Of a DNA stretch of 64,000 nucleotides, positions 2,828-34,086 are shown piece after piece (position 1 is the first letter of the stretch; each line of letters begins with the position of its first letter). The DNA is from Polytrichum commune (lineage: Eukaryota > Streptophyta > Polytrichopsida > Polytrichales > Polytrichaceae). The notes under the pieces are model-generated. The model ran no database searches. It was not told the origin of the DNA and saw only the letters and a program-made list of their open reading frames with translations. Both the position numbers and the translations under genes were made by a program. The stretch covers positions 33,219,501-33,283,500 of the forward strand of contig OX485805.1 of assembly GCA_950295325.1 (NCBI GenBank), read 5' to 3'.

Positions 2828-3735
2828 AATACGACTACCACCTCAATACCTTCAACAACAACACCTCAACAACAACTAAAACAAAATAAAAAGGTTCGTA
2901 TATATACCACTTGAATAGAAACATTTCTCACAAAAATCCCTACTAAAAGCATAAACAGAAATAAATATCCTCCCGAAACAAACTACACGACCCAAAACAT
3001 AACTACAAACACCATCAATATTATATGTATGCCCATGTACATACATGAATGGGACGCCCCATGAATACCAAATTTATTCTCACCTTATATAACCCAAACA
3101 AATCCCCCCACAAAAATGTACAATAAGAAACCACAACTAAGCACAATTACGGCCTATCTTGCTAGAAACCATCTTCTTTTGTTAAGGTGTGGAGACATTG
3201 AGACTAACCTATGCCCAATGCCAAACCTACTACAAAAGCATCCCACTGCCCACAAAAGATGACAAACAACATACTTTTAACCTAGTACAATCAAATTCCA
3301 ACCATAATACCAACACTTGGCCAAAACATTCAAACCACTCTTCCCAACACGCGCATCACCTACACACACAAACAATATTCTCACTTCCATACTTATACAA
3401 CTATATACAACAACACAATAATCACCCCCCCAAGGGTCATCTATGCAATGGTTGTGACAATTAACCCTTCCATTGAAACATGCAACAACAACAACAACCA
3501 ATACAAAATTGGACCTTATAATTATTAGAAAAAATGACAAAACTACCTAATCCACCAGAACACCACATAGACACCCTGCACCCATATACACAATTTTACA
3601 ATATATAGTGATAAAATCTCCCCCCCCAAACACAATCCATAAAAAATTATACAACCACATACACCGCAATTCATAACCACCATGTATCCAAAACATGCAA
3701 GAAACATTATGTGAGCCCAAATTATGCGCCCACAT

Positions 3736-5368
3736 GGGTTCTTAGGTTGAAGAGTCATCAGAATTTAAGATTTGATTTTTTATGGATTATTGTAAAACAT
3801 AAAAAGAGTGAACTTTTGTGTTTGGGTTGGTAGTTGAGTTAACGTGTAAGGGTGGAAATTATGTGGGACTTTAAGTTAACAGGGGGATTTTGGAGGTTAG
3901 TTCTTAGGTGAGGAAAATTAGTAATCATTTGAAGTTAAGATTTAGGTTGGGAATTGATTTCTAGGGAGGCCTTGGCCGTGCATTATTGTTTTTTTTTTTC
4001 TATAGGTTTGCAATTAGGTGCATGAGTAATTGTTTTAGGCTTTGAACCGATTCAATTTTGGTGAGAGGTAGTTACCCAACGGCGGGTGAGGCCTGGAATT
4101 CCGGATCCAGGGTAGGGCCTTGAGCTCTCGGCTTCGTTGTGTTCTCTCTCTCTCTTGCTGTGTGTGTGTAGGGGGGGGGGGGATAAGGAGAAGGAATGAA
4201 GAGAGAGCAGGGTGTGCGGCATTGCGCCCAAGCTGAGACATCATATGGTACTCACAAACAGATGATGGCTGCCAGCAGCTTCGGTCAGTGACGGGGGATG
4301 GGAAATCTATTCGGTGAACCAAAGCAAGCGAGGACGCTGGGGACTCCCTAGCTCATGGCCAAGGCCAGGGGAGGAGAAGTGCGAATGAGGGATGGGGGAT
4401 GAAATGAGGATTGAGTGACTGCCAAAAAACTCAGTAGCTACGCTGAAGGGGTGACCAGCGTAGGGGAGGAGGAGGCGAACCTGGTGGAATTACACCCATA
4501 CATGTTCTTATGAATGCACCGCACTAGAGGGTTGAAGGAGTAGCGCCTCCTCAGTAAGGACTGGGTGCATAACAACAATTGGGTTGTAGTAAATTGGACT
4601 GCAGATAGTTGTGAGGCGAGCTGGGAGACTTGTCACTGGTGCATCAAACTGCACCTCTCACCATTGGGAATGCCGGAATGAATTCAAGGGGGAAGAGCCA
4701 ATTGCATTGCACTAATTTGTCCCGAACAGGGCGAAGAACGCGGGGAGGGGATCGAAGAAGGGGAGGTCTAATCAACCTCAGAGGGATCTAAGCATGGCTG
4801 CGGACTGATGCAACCGAGAGAGTGTGGTTGGTTGCCAACTCGGAAGAAGGATCATCTAAGAAGGGAGAGCTGCCGAAGCTCACGATCAGGCTTAGCCACT
4901 ACATTCGGAAGGGGGTTCAGACCAGTTGCCAGCAAAGGGAGGCTGCAGCCAGCTGCCCAGGCTCTAGTAAGAGGAGAGGGGTTGTTAGGCCTCTGCCGCA
5001 AGTTGTGAGGCGAACTGACGAGTAATCACAACGGCGGCTGTGGGAAAGGGGGTCCAGACCAACTGCCATTGTGACGTGGGTAATTGGAGGTTATGTGTGT
5101 GTTAGGGGTTAGGTAGGAGTTAAGGATGTGTTGTTGTGTGGATTGTAATTAAGGTATTTGTCAATACTTGCTTCTTGAGTATAATAAAGGAAAAGTTCCA
5201 TTGCACAATTCCATTAGGAGACCGAGGAGGTGTTACCTGACATGGTAAGTGGTTGGTGCAATCAAGGGAAGTAGATCCATCATGGGAATCACAATCAACT
5301 AATGGAGGGATTAATCTTGGCTCACCCCTGATATACTAAGATTCCAGCCGAGGTCATTGGATGTCAAA
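3736..5368. mobile_element. Element inserted in the non-LTR element, probable LTR relic
   Basis: Base composition switches abruptly from A+C-rich to G+T/G+A-rich at about 3736 and back at about 5368. The bases CACAT occur at 3731-3735 and again at 5369-5373, as expected for a 5-bp target duplication. Inside are a CATAAAAAGAGTG promoter-like motif (near 3799), a CT/GT-rich patch with a 12-G run (4141-4182) and GC-richer sequence to about 5060, with no recognisable protein domain. A similar order (TATAAAAAGAGTG, pyrimidine-rich patch, CAGCTGC-type repeats) occurs at 35820-36600 beside a Ty3/gypsy fossil, so a solo LTR or other non-coding LTR relic is the favoured reading. The exact ends do not show TG..CA, so classification stays open. 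Confidence 0.35.
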
Positions 5369-5791
5369 CACATGTGGGCTCTAAACATTCACCCAGACTA
5401 CGATGCACAAGTATTTGGGTTAATAGGAACATTCCAACATAAATGGATAGGGAAAGGATATGCCCACCCACATATAGAAAATGAAGACCAACAAACCCTC
5501 CACTGGGCAAGACTTGTAGCCAAAAACAACCCAAACATAACCACAATACTCATAACAACATATCCAAACTGGTACCGCAACCTTAACCCCCACGATGGCC
5601 CCTTCCCAGACTCACACGTCATCACACACTTCAAGGCGGATACCATTATATATGACGAACCAACAATACCACCAGAACTACGAATTGAACCAAAGAATAG
5701 AAAGGCGCGACATCCGTGTTTTGTGCATACACCACAAAATCACACCCATCGGATCAAGGGGATATACCCATCACATGGACACTATTGGTAA
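5357..5791 (+). pseudogene. Unassigned domain of the non-LTR element
   Basis: A 144-codon open frame just right of the insertion. It contains FQHKWIGKGYAHPHIE, HWARLVAKNNPNITTILI and a Pro-rich segment ending TIIYDEPTIPPELRIEP. The alternation of a hydrophobic strand (ITTILITTYPNWY) with conserved-looking aromatic and proline residues suggests a folded enzyme-like domain. It faintly recalls Dam/PCIF1-type adenine methyltransferase C-terminal parts, where a similar strand follows an NPP(F/Y) motif, but that motif is not present here. The domain precedes RNase H on the same strand with the same codon bias, so it belongs to the same element. Function is not assigned. Confidence 0.35.
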
Positions 5792-5984
5792 CACCCTACA
5801 AATACATGCAATATTTACCAAAATTGCACCACCTACACCAATAAACATCCTAGTGAACTGTATTAAGGAATGATCTAAACTTACATACCCTCTCCACCCA
5901 CCTACCATCCAAACTATTGGTATCCCACCAATCACCAACCTAGACAAATGTCTACACCTCAAATATCAACCACAATTTTGTTAT

Positions 5985-6537
5985 TGTACAGATGGTTCCT
6001 TCATACCGCCTAAAGAAACAACCCATGGGCATTGGAAATGAGAAAATGCAGGATATGGCATATGTAACCCTTTTAAAAATCTCAAAATTGCAGATTGGCT
6101 ATCTGGGGCTCCAAAATACACAACGAGCATAAATGATGGCTATACACCACACCCTCCATCTTCTCACTGCTACATACCGGAATGAACCAACACATATCTT
6201 CACAACTTGCCTCAATGTCTTATATCTACTAAATACACAAATCAAACACCCAACCCTACATAATAGCCACCCAAATAAGAATATACTCAAATCTACAATT
6301 AAAATGCTACAACCTCGTACACAAACCACCACACTTCATAAAGTCAAAGCCCACACGAACATAAATGGCAATAAACAAGTAAACACGCTAGCCAAATGGG
6401 GTTGCGAACTATATCATAGAGATGCCGTAACAACATATGAACGTGCACACCCTACACCATACTACCTCCAAAAATATTGGTGGCACTCAATGCAAGAAAC
6501 ACCAGACAAAGGCCCCATTCGACACCTTGGTAAATAA
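5985..6537 (+). pseudogene. RNase H-like domain of the non-LTR element
   Basis: In broken but followable frames the sequence gives CTDGSF (first catalytic Asp context), AGYGI, a helix MMAIHHTLHLL where the family has a Glu-containing helix, a second segment TTCLNVLYLLN where family members have a T-D-S motif, and the fourth-site segment LHKVKAHTNINGN followed by NTLAKWG. The HKVKAH..-GN..-A pattern is the C-terminal signature of RNase H type I. The second Asp looks replaced (C at TTC instead of TDS), and the last Asp reads N in KQVNTLA. It degrades the RNA strand during reverse transcription in intact relatives; here it is dead. Confidence 0.55.
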
Positions 6538-6559
6538 GTCCTTAAATACGATAAGAGGC

Positions 6560-7345
6560 ATAACCTTTAAATTGTAGCAAACCAAACACACCAATTACAT
6601 AAATGGCTTGACAACAAAGATATCGACAAAGCATTATCAAATGACTTTTGGAAAAATCCTACCATCACAAATAAACAAAAAACGTGTCTAGTAAAATTCC
6701 GAACTGGATAGTATATGGGACATGCTCGGAAACAACTTTTCTTCGGTAGAGAAGCGTACCCATCAAATACATGCCCTATATGTAATTCATTAGATGCATA
6801 TACATGGTTATATGTATTCCTTAAATGCAAACAACAAGACATTCATGCGTTAATAACAAAAAGACATAACAAAGCGGTATGGGAAATACATAAACTTATC
6901 ATCTCAAACAAAATATCAAGGCACTACACACTTATAAACGCAGGCACAAACAATGGCTACCCCAAGAAAACACAGTACTAACATGGCTACTGCCATGCAC
7001 GTGAGGCGCATTGCAATGCTAGGTTCAAACCTGACATACTATGCATCATAGGTCACCCATACAATTACTCGCCACCAGAAGCCCCTACACTGGAAATCAC
7101 CATACAATTTATAGAATTCACATATTGTAAGGACATGTTTACTGCAGAAACTAGAGAGAGAAAAACTACAAAATATCAACCAGTCGTCAATAATATCATA
7201 GCAAAATGATGGAATGTAGCACCACTTATGGTACTAGCTGCAGGTGCAAGAGCCACAACTCACATCCCCTTGATTAAAGAACTAGAAACAAAACTTCAAC
7301 CCCCTACCACAAAAATTAAAAATACATTTAAACAAATCAACATAA
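6560..7345 (+). pseudogene. Zinc knuckle and REL-endonuclease-like C-terminus
   Basis: After RNase H comes a segment with QTHQLHKWLDNKDIDKALS and KTCLVKFRTG, then a C-x2-C...W...C knuckle (TCPICNSLDA, then FLKCKQQD, 6769-6840). From about 7022 the reading FKPDILCI, EITIQFIEFTYC, RERKTTKYQP and then LMVLAAGARATTHI follows. In R2-type and Dualen elements the restriction-like endonuclease has the order (K/R)PD, an acidic strand, K-x2-KY, and a later hydrophobic-Gly-Ala strand. This matches by eye. An in-frame stop lies between the KTTKY and LMVLAAGA parts. It would nick the target DNA in intact relatives. Confidence 0.45.
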
Positions 7346-7460
7346 TTGCCATGTAATACGCACACTTAAAACTAGTTCATAAAAAACGGCTAGAAATTAG
7401 ACAACCTATCACAAACCTATAAGACCTAGCATAATTAAAATACTCACAAATCTAATTTAT

Positions 7461-7844
7461 CCCCCCCCTGTAGCAGTGCCAAGACAACTACCGCTATTGA
7501 AGGCACATGTTACCAGTTGATCGGTAAACCTATCAGTCACTAATGAAGTGTCTACTCCTTGCAAAGGGTGAAATAGTCTTACATCTAACACTATTGCCCC
7601 TAGGTGTGGCCAAGGATGTTCTACAAATAAACACTCTATTCACTCCGGCCTCCTTCGGAGACCATAGTTCTTCTTCTTCTTCTTCTTCTTCTTCTTCTTC
7701 AAATGACACGACTTTACACAATTTTAAAGTATCACCAAACTATGTTACATTGGGCGCGAACAGGACATCCCCCAAGCTGGGACTTACCACGCCCCTTGCG
7801 TGGATGGATGCTGTCAGAGTCCATGTCCCAAGTCGAATCGCCTC
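7461..7844. other. Spacer with CTT microsatellite
   Basis: Mostly unassigned sequence following the retroelement tail. It holds a short C run near 7461 and a (TTC)n microsatellite of eleven units at 7668-7700. The open frames here come from the microsatellite and carry no domain. Confidence 0.5.
7668..7700. repeat. (TTC)11 microsatellite
   Basis: An uninterrupted run of TTC/CTT triplets of 33 bases. In the plus frame it would code a serine run, in the minus frame a glutamate run; neither sits in a supported gene. Confidence 0.95.
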
Positions 7845-10184: not shown

Positions 10185-11980
10185 ATGAAGAGGAGATCGG
10201 AGTTGGAGTTTGCCGTTTTGAATAACAAATTGGAGAAAGAACAATTAATAACCAAACATGCAGTTCCAAAGCGACCGGTGGGGAGGCCAAGGAATGACGG
10301 AACGACGCCATTTCTTAAGTCAAAGGTTGAGCAGATGGAGTCTTTCGTTTCAAAACCAAGGGGCAACTATAAAAATTGGTTTACTCCTTCTCTTTGGCCT
10401 CCTATTTTCAAAACAATGCAACAAGCTAGGAATATTACGAATGCATTGATGTACTTGATGACAGTTTATAGACAACTAGGATCTTTATATAGCCCCTATG
10501 ACTATCTTGCAAGGAGTATAATGTACGAGTGGTTTCATCCCAATGGCGATCTCAAAGAAAATTACAAACGTTATGTGGAACTTGGCACGTATTTTGACAA
10601 GGCCTCACAACATTGCCCTATACTCGGTGATTATCCCGCCCTTAGATATGAGATTTGCAATGAATTTAGAAAACAACGCGCTAGCGGCCAACCACTCTTC
10701 GTTGTTATCATCCAACCCTTCATTAAAATCCTTATCCAAAATTATGAGCCTCAATTACTTGAGGATGAGAAGTTTAAGGTTTCCACAAAGTGGACAAGGG
10801 TTTTTATCAAATTTAAATTAAATTAGAGTTATCATGCTGCAACAACGGCTGCGGAGAAACTTCCAGACGACTTTAAATTGCAAGGATTGACAATGGCACA
10901 AATGTGTGTTTATTTTATTAAGGTTCACAACAATCCTCAATCTCTTATTGTTAACAGTGATCAAACCGGTATTCATTTGGTACCTACAAGAGGAGTAAGA
11001 ACATAAGATATTAAGGGGATTAAACATGTAAGTGTGCATGGGCTAGAGGACAAAAGATAAGTCACTGTAGTTGTTTCATCTGCCGCTACATGTGAAGTTT
11101 TACCTTTTTAAGTTGTATTTCAATGACTTACTTCTCGAGTTTTACCACCACTAAACGATGGGAGACGAGAATGTGTTGATTGTGAATGAGACCTGACATT
11201 TAGTTACAATCATTGGTCTACTATGGAGACGTGCAAGAATTTTATCAAGACAATTTTATCAAACTATCTTCGGTTGCAAATTACTCTCTTGGGTTTGCCA
11301 AAACCCAAGAGATGATTTGGTTAATTGATTACTGGAGCGTACACATTTCCAAAGAATTCAGAGAGTGGATGAAGGACAATTATCCTCATGTTCATGTCTT
11401 ATACATCCCGGCAAATTGCACTAGCATCTACCAACCTACAAATGTGATCCTACAACATCCGTTCAAGCATGCTTTTCGTCAAGAATTTAACAAGTGTACG
11501 ATGAATATGATTATAAATGACATTGAAACAAACTCTAGCATCAAGGTTGATTTTAAAATATCTACCTTGAAACCTCTACTTTGTTTTTGGTTGTTTACTT
11601 CATAGTTATCTGTTTGCAATAAGCAAGAGATGGTAAAGGTGGGGTGGAGCAAGTGCGGACTATTTCGTTCGTTCGACCCTGAATTTTAAAAAGATGTCAT
11701 GATACAAAACATGAAGTCATCTTTGTTCGAGGAAGATACAAGCATTCAAGTGGATACAAGCAAAAATATAGAAGATGAAGACATAGATGTCGAGGAGAGT
11801 TTGGAAGCAATAATGGAAGACACACTTTCAAGAGTTCAAAACTCTCCACTTCTCATGGTATATGTTTCATGGCTTCAATCTTTAGAATGGCAAGGAAAAA
11901 ATAAGTCTACATGCAATAACATTTCGGCAAATATTTTATATCAACTCAAATTTAGGTTTGCTATATTACATTCAATTTAG
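10185..11980 (+). pseudogene. Pogo/Tigger-like DDE transposase, broken
   Basis: Three successive frames give one transposase of the DDE_1 (pogo/CENP-B-like) type. The first (10185-10826, 213 aa) carries an AT-hook-like KRPVGRPRND and a CENPB-type helix-turn-helix region (QPLFVVIIQPFIKIL, STKWTRVFIKF), which continues after a stop as AATTAAEKLPDDFKL. The first catalytic Asp lies in VNSDQTGIHLVP (about 10949-10984); the second in IWLIDYWSVHISKEF (11309-11353). The third position reads QPTNVILQ, where relatives have an acidic residue (QPADV), so it appears lost. An acidic tail (EDEDIDVEESLEAIMED) is at 11699-11980. Several stops and shifts separate the pieces. Terminal inverted repeats were not found. 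The 5' end abuts the 120-bp array repeat, so the element may have been inserted or truncated there. Confidence 0.75.
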
Positions 11981-27002: not shown

Positions 27003-28962
27003 CGCCAGGCCTTTTCTAGATTCTTTCAGTGGTTGTTACCAGGGTAGTTGCTGCATACAAGGCTCACGCAAAGCTTCTGGAGCTGACTGATGCTCCCTGC
27101 AGTTTTAGAAACACTTCGTGCAGTTTTTCAGGTGAATTTCTTGCTTGAATGGTTTCTGCAAGCAACAATCTAGCACTCTGAGGAGGTGGTCGTTTTGCAG
27201 AATTCAATCTCTAGAGAATGATGCTAATTTACCTGTTCTGTTGTCCAGGTTATGGTGTGGAACTTAAAATTCCTGATCAACAATCATCTCAAGCACAGAA
27301 GCTTATGGCCTTGTATTGTTTCATTAACTACTCCACAACTGCTGGATCACCTGTGGGTTTCCATTGCCAAGTAGTGCATATTTGCAACTCTTCATTTACA
27401 TTTGAAAGTAAACATTATACAATTTGCAGCATACGCGTCCCACGTTGCGGCATGATTATATAGTAGAATGTCTGGTTACCCAATTTATTAGCTGGGTGCT
27501 ATGCATGAGGGAAAGTGGGTTCAATGGTAGCCTAGCTAACAGGAAAAGACATTTTTGCCGTTGAATGTAGCTCTAGACCGGGTCCTCTAAAGGGAGATGA
27601 GAAAGTATGAACCCATCCTGACAGCCTCTCCTGTTTCCAGAGGCATGGGAATGATAAAATTCTCTATAATTTCGTGTATAGTTTCTGAAGTAATCAATCC
27701 AGTTCATGCAATTGATGGACATTAATTTTTGTCCCAATTCTGTTGTGAAGCATGCATTGTACATTGTGTTCATTGCACAGAAGGCATCCACAGCACATCA
27801 ACTTTTATTAGAGTAACCATTTTCCCCCCCCAGATGAGCATTACTTCTGGAATGAAGACTATTGTGTGAAAGGAGAATTCTCATGGACTAAACTTGCATT
27901 TGGATGATGTCAATAACTTTATTTGCTTCTTTTGCATTGTCCTACTCTTTTCTGGAAAACCAAAAGAAGCTATTGTACTGTGGAGTTGAGGAAGTTAGTT
28001 TAGGCTTTAATTATGGTGGCAGATTCTTGAACATATGTTTATCTTGCTCAAGCAACTCATGAGAACTGTTGTTTACTGTTTATTGTGAGATCTTGTGATG
28101 TTCAAAAATGAAGAATATTGTGCTTTTTATGATAGTACAAGCAATAATGTAAACAGAGGGTCATCCAACGGTGTATTATCAGTGCTCACTATTAACTAGT
28201 AACTGTCTGAATATTAGAGCTGAGTAGCTTAGGTTGGGGATTTGAAGGGAGGTAGCTGAGCAGCAGGAACATGCGGATCCCTCAAGCGTTCCATTTGGAT
28301 TGGATTAAAGAAGAATGAGAGGCATGAAGAATAACTTCACACTACCAATCAAGTGCTCCTCCAATTATTCCAGCTCTACAATTACACATACTGTAGGTAT
28401 GTTTGATTTTCATTATAACAGAAATCCTAAAAATTGAAGAAAACTTATGTTTAGTTGGACATTTAAAAGAAAAAAAGAAAAAGAAAAGGTATCCAACTTA
28501 AATTAGTGATTGCATTTGGTCCGCTTACCTGCGTGGAAGATTCCTTTCCACAGAGTATTAATTAGTAATGCTGCAAAAGTGATCAGTCAATTGACCATCA
28601 TCTCTAATTAGTGGCCTTCAGCTCTCATAGGTGCACACATCCTGTCATCCTGACCTCAGTATGTGTAAGGTATGTGTACAAAACATTGTTAAGCAGTTTG
28701 CGTTCATCCATGTGGGCCCCAAGAATATAACCATGGCCTGCCGCAGCAAGTGAACCTTGTGCGGCAGGTGAACCTTAAACAAACACTATGTACCACTGTC
28801 ATACATTCATTCAAGTTGAGGTCTGGTCACATTGTCAGAGTTGACTGTTCCTCATAGACGTGGGATTGCTTGATAAGTCCCCCACGACACCTGGCTTCAA
28901 TGCACATACCTGAAACTATAATGTGGAGTAATCCGAAGTGAGCTGCTGCTCTACTAGAACAA
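27003..28962. other. 3' region of DnaJ gene and convergent spacer
   Basis: Holds the 3' UTR of the DnaJ gene and, on the other strand, that of the F-box gene. No further gene is seen. The end of the DnaJ transcript is not fixed; AT-rich candidates lie at 28100-28160. Short open frames have no motif. Confidence 0.5.
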
Positions 28963-31400: not shown

Positions 31401-34086
31401 TTACTCATATGCTAGCTAACCCATCGCACAGCAGCAACACATCTCAGTTACCACTAACCAAAGGTTGACCAATTTAAGAGAGGAGCTCAGATTCACCCAT
31501 CCAATTGTTCTCAACATGACACTAATTACAATATGTCCACACCATTTGTGTTTCAATATGATTAAAATAAACATCATTATTCATCTAAATTTAGACATTT
31601 CGAATTCGTGTTTTAGTAATATTATCATTAACACATTAAAATTAAATTAAAAATAATGTGTTGATTTAGGGCGATGTAAGAAATAGTGTGGTCCGCCTCG
31701 TAGCGGAACGGAGAAGGGACCCAAGAAATGAAAGGTGAGCATTCAAGAAAAAAACTTGGGCTACTCATTTGCAAAAGTTAGCCAACATTGGGGGTATGGA
31801 TGAGTTTAGATTTTTTCACAAAAGCAAAGTTCTAAAAGCTTGCTAAATTTTGTTTTGGTAGCTTTTATTTAAACCTTAATTTTAATTAGGTGGTGCGGCC
31901 ATGAAATCAATTAGCTCCCATAAAGGTTAGCTACCTCATATATTAGTTAATTCTCTTAATTAATATCTTCATACATTCCATATGAAGATAAAAGTGAAGA
32001 TGCCCCAAGCACGTGGTGGAGGTGCAAACTTGTGATTGTGCAAGTGCAATGGAGGATATTGTTTCTGAAATTTAAAATTGATTATTGTTCGGAACTACAC
32101 GTGACTATGTTAAAATCTTCATTTATAGTATTATTCACATAAGCAAAGCAATTGTGGATACCATGGAATATAATGTTGTTCACTAGTAGAGAATTTATAT
32201 GCTATGTCAAAATAATAAAATTGTGTAACTACAGATTGTAAGTGACACATATATCATAAATAGTGCAATCCTTTTTGAAGAAGGTTATTTAATTTTATTT
32301 GCATACAACACACTTTCATTTCTCAAGCATCGAAGTGTTGCATTGATGGACTTGCTTGGTACCTAGTCACCTTCCATTCTCAAGCATGGAACTACATGTT
32401 GTTTACGCTGTTGATAAAAATGTGAATGTTGTATGGGAGAGGTTTGGTGTGTTGAACTGCAAGTACTAGGCTATAAGGCTCCGCTCTCAGTATGTTGGGG
32501 TATCCAAGGAGCTTAGCAACGATAATAGTGCGTGAGGAAGCCTTATAGACTCTAGAGCCAGTGATATTATCATTGCCTTCGTGATATGGGGGGGGGGGGG
32601 GGAGAACCATCGGTGTAGTATGCAAACCAAGGGTGATATTTGTGGGGATGAATGTGAGCACGGGGAGGTCACTATCAAAATTTTATTAAACCTTGTGGAA
32701 AAAAAAACATAGGGTATTTTAATTCAATAGAGTAAAAATTTAACAAATTTTGGAATTACTATAGCTTGGATAAAACAAACCACACAATATTATATCTAAA
32801 GTAGGGTAGGTGAAATGCACAGAGGGTATTCATTTTTATATTAATAAATAGGATATGTAATATTTGGACGAGCAAATAATTTATGTGAGGTTCAAATGAA
32901 TGTATTTGTATTTTATGAGAAATAGTCTTAATTGACTAAAATTCATCCAATTTAGAAGTTGGCATTGGATATCATGGTTCAGGGCCACTTCACACACAAG
33001 CCAAGAGCTTGACCATGAGATTGTGAGAGCTCAAAAGAAGTGTCCAAAGGCCATCCCAAGGCACCTCCAAAATCATGTAGTGTGGTCATAGGCCCTCAAG
33101 TGTAGTGTGAAATCATACGTGACCGGGCCCTCAACCAAATGCTATTTCACGTTTTCCTATTCAACTAGAATTTCTTCAACAAAGCAGAGGGAGACTGCTC
33201 AAGAGCAACACCCCGACTTTAGTTTTCCAAGGAGCTAACAATAATATGTGGTGGATTGGGCAGGTTCAAATGATGTGGAGGAAGTTTGGCTTGAAATGAA
33301 AATAATTTAGGCAACCCGTTGGCCTCAAAAAAATAACAAGAAATTGCATTTGAAACGGAACTTTCCATGCCGACATTTGAATTCATGATGTATTATTTTT
33401 CACTTGCTCCAGATTACCTCAAATTCCAGTATGACCAAACAAATTTTAAGTGGGTGGATGTAGATTTAATTTTGTCAAATGTGACAATGGAGTATGATCC
33501 GGTTATGAAGATTATTCACTTGATCTTATAAATGCTAAGAGCTTAGATGAATTTGTGGGAAAATCATGGTTGTAAGAATTGCATTGATGTTGATCACACT
33601 TGAACATTTGCCCTTTGTAGACAATATTATTGGTCATTTGATTGTTTGCGTATAATTATGTTGGATATTTTACTCATTTTGTAGGTTCATTTGGTTGACA
33701 TGTTTTTGAACACATTCTTGAATATGAAAACCATCTAATTTTTTTCCTTTCTCCTAGTTTTTGTTCATGCTTCTGAAGGCAACCAGACCAAATTGCACAC
33801 TTTAGGCATCGAGCACAATTTTTTATTATTATTTGAATTGTTTTTTTAATGTTTTTTTTTCATAGATCAACATCAATTTATGTCAATATTTCACGATGTT
33901 GATAAAATTATGGTACAATTTACTAGTAGAGTCTATAAAATTGTTTCATGATTTATATTATTTTACCTATAGAGTCTTGAAAAATACCTCAAAGTATCGT
34001 TTTATTTATTTATAGGGCTCCAATCAATCATAAAATCTAGATAAATAGCCCATCTTTAAATAACCACATGTAGTATACCCTAGAGA
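31401..34086. other. Gene-free AT-rich stretch with a G run
   Basis: No gene recognised. A homopolymer of 15 G lies at 32588-32602. The remainder is AT-rich with short frames. It ends at the coding part of the LTR-retrotransposon fossil, and its last kilobase may include older parts of that element, though nothing is recognisable. Confidence 0.5.

Follow-up and report, generated by a model that had tools for sequence, protein, structure and literature searches.

Dead remains of a large, abundant moss LINE with a putative dual-endonuclease layout in Polytrichum commune

A stretch of 64,000 nucleotides from the moss Polytrichum commune (the window; assembly GCA_950295325.1, contig OX485805.1, positions 33,219,501 to 33,283,500 of the forward strand) raises the question of which kind of non-LTR retrotransposon left RNase H motifs and a tail resembling a restriction-like endonuclease (REL) side by side in a land plant. 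A preliminary description of positions 5985..7345 had read them as remains of a Dualen-like element or of a new clade. We propose, with a probability of about 0.78, that the window carries the dead remnant of a moss LINE, very large and high in copy number, that has a dual-endonuclease, i.e. Dualen-type, layout and would be mobilized by the mechanism outlined below.

A decayed copy in the window and its family in the genome

A non-LTR retrotransposon has left a broken copy on the + strand of the window, and this copy is larger than 5985..7345. Comparison by blastn with five long copies from the same genome and by tblastn with three protein queries places element homology at about 5407-7687 plus about 3176-3708, and the 1.7 kb between both blocks give no match to these five DNA references and three protein queries. 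The upstream block (3173..3709, +) represents an N-terminal ORF2 remnant from upstream of the apurinic-type endonuclease (APE), broken across frames, which is matched by the long copies in blastn over about 3176-3708 and by aa 12-189 of the N-terminal frame of copy L053 in tblastn (45.6% identity, E 3e-27). The unmatched stretch (3710..5406, +) lies at the expected place of APE and reverse transcriptase (RT) and may reflect an insertion, a deletion or a rearrangement. Downstream of it, all on the + strand, follow the C-terminal part of a PCIF1-related domain (5408..5728; tblastn with copy L049 aa 1490-1599, 70% identity, E 2.4e-39), a spacer with the first part of the RNase H (5688..6107; L049 aa 1584-1724, 61.7% identity) and the remaining RNase H with the start of the linker to the knuckle (6106..6600, end approximate; L049 aa 1724-2165 over 6106-7419, 74% identity; open frame 6133-6537). 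CTDGSF starts at 5985, TDGSF at 5988 and HKVKAH..GN..A lies around 6340-6390, while the motif table records no RNase H glutamate motif in this copy.

The CCHC-type knuckle (6772..6828, +; motif C-x2-C-x9-[HY]-x4-C at 6772) carries Y in place of an H that is invariant in 23 aligned family tails. RHNK at 6862 is followed by the REL-like core (7018..7345, +), which comprises KPD just after 7018, QFIEFTY at 7105, K-x2-KY at 7162 and the Gly-Ala strand near 7240, is interrupted by one internal TGA and was related to the R2 REL on the family alignment described below. The copy ends with a conserved 3' untranslated end (7532..7687, +; blastn with L049, L050, L051 and L054 over about 7532-7687, the match of L053 also running through 7687) and, by its sequence, a (TTC)11 3' tail (7668..7700, +) of a kind found in other copies as well. 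The RNase H motifs, the C-x2-C knuckle and the tail with KPD, EFTY, K-x2-KY and Gly-Ala strand noticed in the preliminary description are all present on the + strand of 5985..7345, and the copy is dead, as stated there, because its motifs sit in different frames, with stops.

Elsewhere in the window, positions 32446-32647 (- strand) show weak protein similarity to the element's RNase H region (E 7.4e-4), perhaps an older fragment, and at positions 28679-28735 short pieces of DNA match what flanks copy L053 on its 3' side, pointing to some other repeat common to both. A frame at 11213-11602 (+) matches a DDE_1 superfamily endonuclease (E 2.3e-7); Pfam gives nothing for the frame next to it, 10185-10823.

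Searching the genome assembly (64 contigs totalling 408 Mb, of which seven measure 42-78 Mb) returned 3147 first-look candidates for the tail peptide and 1980 for the RNase H piece, numbers that stand for candidates and not for verified copies. All 150 scored per search match, with E<=7.5e-46 for the tail (one being the window itself) and E<=2.1e-62 for the RNase H piece, so the window motifs are not chance. The family is that of a LINE of great length and high copy number, its candidate copies in the genome running into thousands. The same element copy is found with equal scores on a chromosome (C3:875152) and on a 37-kb contig (C24:12365), probably an unplaced duplicate in the assembly. The small contig C8 carries psaA next to psaB and is regarded as the plastid; its psaB scores highest with PDB chains 8htu, 6l35 and 7ksq, photosystem I of the moss Physcomitrella, in keeping with a moss host.

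We examined eight long copies (L049-L054, L069 and L070), i.e. stretches of ~10 kb around long frames. Three of them hold everything from APE to the tail in one open frame (L049, 2169 aa; L069, 2919 aa; L070, 2924 aa), and in the remaining five (L050-L054) APE and RT are split over different open stretches. Better copies with RT beside the RNase H and the REL-like tail, which the preliminary description had expected a genome-wide search to find, do exist. Upstream of ORF2 in L070 lies a second frame of 1492 aa that reaches the edge of the retrieved sequence without closing (joined positions 2-4477 of L071 and L070), and upstream of ORF2 in L052 a frame of 1186 aa (joined positions 23-3580 of L072 and L052), both sharing about 51% identity over their last ~650 aa; no Pfam family scores above cut-off in the 602 aa scanned of the L070 upstream frame. 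The two L070 frames together span >13 kb, the stretch ending before the 5' end of the element. Subfamilies diverge to about 40% protein identity, and several copies have tails with 97-99% protein identity to one another, which fits recent activity.

Mobility is visible at the ends of the copies. The main subfamily has (TTC)n 3' tails; L069 and L070 carry (TATC)n, despite preceding 3' sequence similar to that of (TTC)n copies. Target-site duplications were sought in 13 truncated copies, 11 of which have a recognisable tail (L031 and L055 lack one). Clean duplications of 11-14 bp flank six of the 11 scorable copies (L014, L015, L020, L021, L037 and L040), starting at most 1 base from the tail end and lying at the truncation point, with a length reached in 0/200 shuffles for each. 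The other five show no clean duplication, L025 being C-rich and of low complexity, L017 sharing 9 bases that are not flush and L028, L034 and L048 having none. Short-repeat tails and target-site duplications at scattered sites establish retrotransposition as the mode of insertion, and the 11-14 bp duplications at tail and truncation point are the signature of target-primed reverse transcription at dispersed places. A single fixed target and long microsatellites were both dismissed as insertion sites, as the flanks after the tail, compared by eye, differ between loci, a few of which are one place represented twice (e.g. L035 and L052).

Domain content, REL-like tail and PCIF1-related domain

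In ORF2, the domains follow each other in the order APE, RT, PCIF1-related domain, RNase H, and knuckle with REL-like tail. RVT_1, RNase_H and PCIF1_WW score above the Pfam cut-off in all four open copies scanned (L049, L053, L069 and L070), and an APE-type family does so in L049 (Exo_endo_phos_2) and L069 (Exo_endo_phos); the stretch of L053 scanned excludes the APE region, and Pfam finds no APE in L070, though the APE motifs are present. According to the motif table, APE, RT, PCIF1-related and RNase H (D-E-D-H-D) motifs as well as the knuckle, K/RPD and QFIEFTY occur in 8/8 long copies and RHNK in seven of the eight. The RNase H reading holds, an open copy matching PF00075 at E 8.3e-15, and H occupies the fourth catalytic place in every long copy.

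NPGP is present in all eight long copies, with up to three 2A-like motifs in tandem upstream of the ORF2 core; the motif adjoining this core is NPGP in seven copies and NPGS in L052. Two or three tandem NPGP motifs, each in a similar NNS..LILL.GD(I/V) context, were seen in L049, L050, L051, L052 and L054. The E of the (V/I)ExNPGP consensus is found in the ORF2-adjoining motif of L069 only, the others reading GDIHPNPGP or GDIKPNPGP, and this departure from the consensus speaks against assuming 2A activity.

The REL reading of the preliminary description was to be checked by profile comparison, and it stands up to it. We compared a profile of 23 family tails (A1) by hhalign with a profile of three R2 REL rows (A3), whose letters were taken from PDB R2 sequences. 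Both align over 136 columns (score 34.8, E 1.9e-4, probability 47.5%) and collinearly, running from the knuckle through RHNK, KPD and K-x2-KY to GARG. Each of 200 column shuffles scores lower (maximum 21.2, mean 13.3, s.d. 2.3), as do the reversed tail profile (12.3) and the unrelated profile of 21 PCIF1-related domains (A2; 10.0). No Pfam model covers the tail, and a plain search of the PDB with the tail profile reaches R2Bm at E 0.69 only, behind two unrelated methylase chains (E 0.61 and 0.63), the R2Bm match falling at the corresponding place, i.e. knuckle plus RHN motif. Judged by profile alignment, the tail is a homologue of the R2 restriction-like endonuclease, aligning with it end to end, and a putative nuclease.

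To assess selection, Nei-Gojobori dN/dS was computed for five pairs drawn from L049, L050, L053 and L054. The values are rough because dS ranges from 0.47 to 1.79, and amount to 0.08-0.10 for knuckle plus REL in 5/5 pairs, 0.08-0.10 for the PCIF1-related domain, 0.04-0.07 for RT, 0.04-0.12 for RNase H, 0.11-0.14 for the post-RT linker and 0.16-0.36 for the spacer. Several regions are saturated in two more distant pairs, and APE gives 0.11 at dS 2.05 in a single pair (L069 with L070). The REL-like tail is under purifying selection.

Between RT and RNase H lies the PCIF1-related domain, matching PF12237, which we take to be the catalytic part of the cap-m6Am writer, above cut-off in all four open copies; in the most distant subfamily tested (L003) the score is 31.0 bits at a cut-off of 31.1. 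With the profile of the 21 domains searched against 177635 PDB sequences, PCIF1 is the only protein matched at E up to 1 (6irx, E 3.3e-4; 6irv, E 0.033). In the 6irv alignment the NPPF motif stands opposite HPH plus one residue, and NPPF occurs in none of the 21 aligned domains, which have HPH, HPP or FPT there instead. PF12237 has matches in 0/14 control genomes. The moss genome yields 697 PF12237 candidates, of which 150 were scored; ten fetched from these (L055-L064) look like element copies, with no host PCIF1 gene among them. The PCIF1-related domain is thus, by its alignment and substitution pattern, a selected domain that lacks the NPPF catalytic motif, and it is the most unexpected part of the element.

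Sequence scans for relatives gave none in viral contigs (tail, PCIF1-related domain and RT) or in further genome contigs (tail), and one distant bacterial match in a plasmid scan. Neither an element with APE and REL in a land plant nor a PCIF1 domain in a LINE was encountered as reported in the literature searched; with Repbase and most subscription papers outside this search, it is weak evidence of absence.

Proposed mechanism and alternative explanations

We propose a mechanism in which skipping at the 2A-like motifs would free the ORF2 protein, which would copy its own RNA by target-primed reverse transcription. One of the endonucleases, more likely APE because the sites are not fixed, would make the first nick, REL would make or guide the second cut and RNase H would clear the RNA. 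The PCIF1-related domain, its catalytic motif lost, would be kept as a non-catalytic binding module, perhaps, as a guess, for capped RNA. A bolder version, which we regard as speculative and rather doubtful, would have moss dual-endonuclease LINEs of >13 kb thrive with a captured PCIF1 domain, catalytically dead yet under selection, reading their own capped RNA and both endonucleases sharing the cutting of the two strands.

The alternative that fares best, although we favour it less than the Dualen-type reading, is a separate clade in which an APE element gained, or independently kept, the REL-like tail and the PCIF1-related domain in plants, convergent with algal Dualen. A profile of six RT rows (A4) scores highest with three R2 proteins (108, 96 and 95.5 bits), then with L1 (74-71 bits) and R2Bm (71-67 bits), which are scores only and no placement. 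The 2005 Dualen study by Kojima and Fujiwara is said to have found a cysteine protease in Dualen; for the moss frames of 2919 and 2924 aa Pfam reports no peptidase family, though a divergent one could escape it. Descriptions of Dualen in the literature consulted, moreover, include neither a PCIF1-related domain nor a long upstream frame. These observations suit a separate clade, but PMC4640811 and PMC3636483 describe Dualen with this very combination of APE, RT, RNase H and RLE, and non-A short-repeat tails are given for 8/8 algal RandI families in a table of PMC3747384.

Somewhat less likely still is a tail that descends from REL, has lost nuclease activity and serves as a nucleic-acid binding domain, with APE doing the cutting. 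Complete APE motifs in all eight long copies, scattered target sites and a spacing from PD to the acidic strand that is longer than in the R2 sequences would fit this idea, but the E of IEFTY as well as both lysines and the tyrosine of K-x2-KY are invariant in 23/23 tails, P and D are kept in >=90%, and the low dN/dS of the tail recurs in 5/5 pairs. It is very improbable that the element is a usual plant L1 and that the REL reading mistakes its C-terminal zinc knuckle: the genome does contain zf-RVT, typical of plant LINEs (322 candidates, of which 150 were scored and 141 matched), and the element has APE, but its open copies match neither zf-RVT nor RVT_3 in Pfam, its RNase H belongs to PF00075 and has H as fourth catalytic residue, its tails are not poly(A) and the R2-like homology extends far past the knuckle.

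If the Dualen-type reading is correct, the many near-identical copies of this land-plant lineage would allow tests of how two endonucleases work in one LINE. A connection of retrotransposition with the recognition of cap adenosine, which none of the literature consulted mentions, is hinted at by the PCIF1-related domain. Annotation expecting only L1 or RTE among plant LINEs would misfile a family of such size.

Comparison with known elements

With the R2 group (PDB 8gh6, 9nl2 and 9nl3), the moss element shares the knuckle, the RHN motif and a collinear REL tail, and R2 is among the best PDB matches of its RT. R2 elements, which are not known to carry APE or RNase H, are site-specific with REL as sole endonuclease, whereas the moss element is found at scattered sites and has APE as well. 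Sequence homology in PF12237 is what the element has in common with PCIF1 (CAPAM, the cap-adenosine N6 methyltransferase; 6irx and 6irv), from which its domain differs by the missing NPPF (21/21) and by sitting inside a LINE polyprotein.

APE-type non-LTR retrotransposons bearing 2A are known (Odon 2013, as cited in PMC12846837 and PMC4981915) and likewise have NPGP just upstream of the APE-RT protein; the moss element differs by up to three tandem motifs, several of them without the consensus E, and by the additional REL. Plant L1 elements are described in PMC4640811 as having an RNase H of archaeal-like type in which R replaces H, and a table of PMC3747384 gives a poly(A) tail for 224 of 233 flowering-plant families; the moss element has neither, its RNase H showing H in 8/8 long copies. 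The LINEs of another moss, Physcomitrium patens, are treated in PMC7466625.

Dualen encodes both APE and RLE and has served as an argument on the way in which LINEs changed endonuclease type, and RNase H is present in Dualen/RandI (PMC4640811). The moss element shows APE N-terminal to RT, an RNase H, a non-A short-repeat tail and, by homology, REL, so that the Dualen-type arrangement suggested by the preliminary description is seen in a land plant, as a layout set against published descriptions of Dualen. That description had also named APE in full-length relatives as a sign against its reading; the relatives do carry APE, but together with the REL-like tail, which is the Dualen arrangement. 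As compared through these descriptions, the element would be called Dualen-like by its parts rather than filed as a proven member of the clade. It departs from Dualen/RandI as described by the absence of a protease in Pfam, by the PCIF1-related domain between RT and RNase H, the 2A-like motifs and the long upstream frame, and by its host: a 2015 survey table (PMC4438587) lists Dualen/RandI, and with it the dual-endonuclease layout, from green algae only, whereas the layout described here is that of a moss element.
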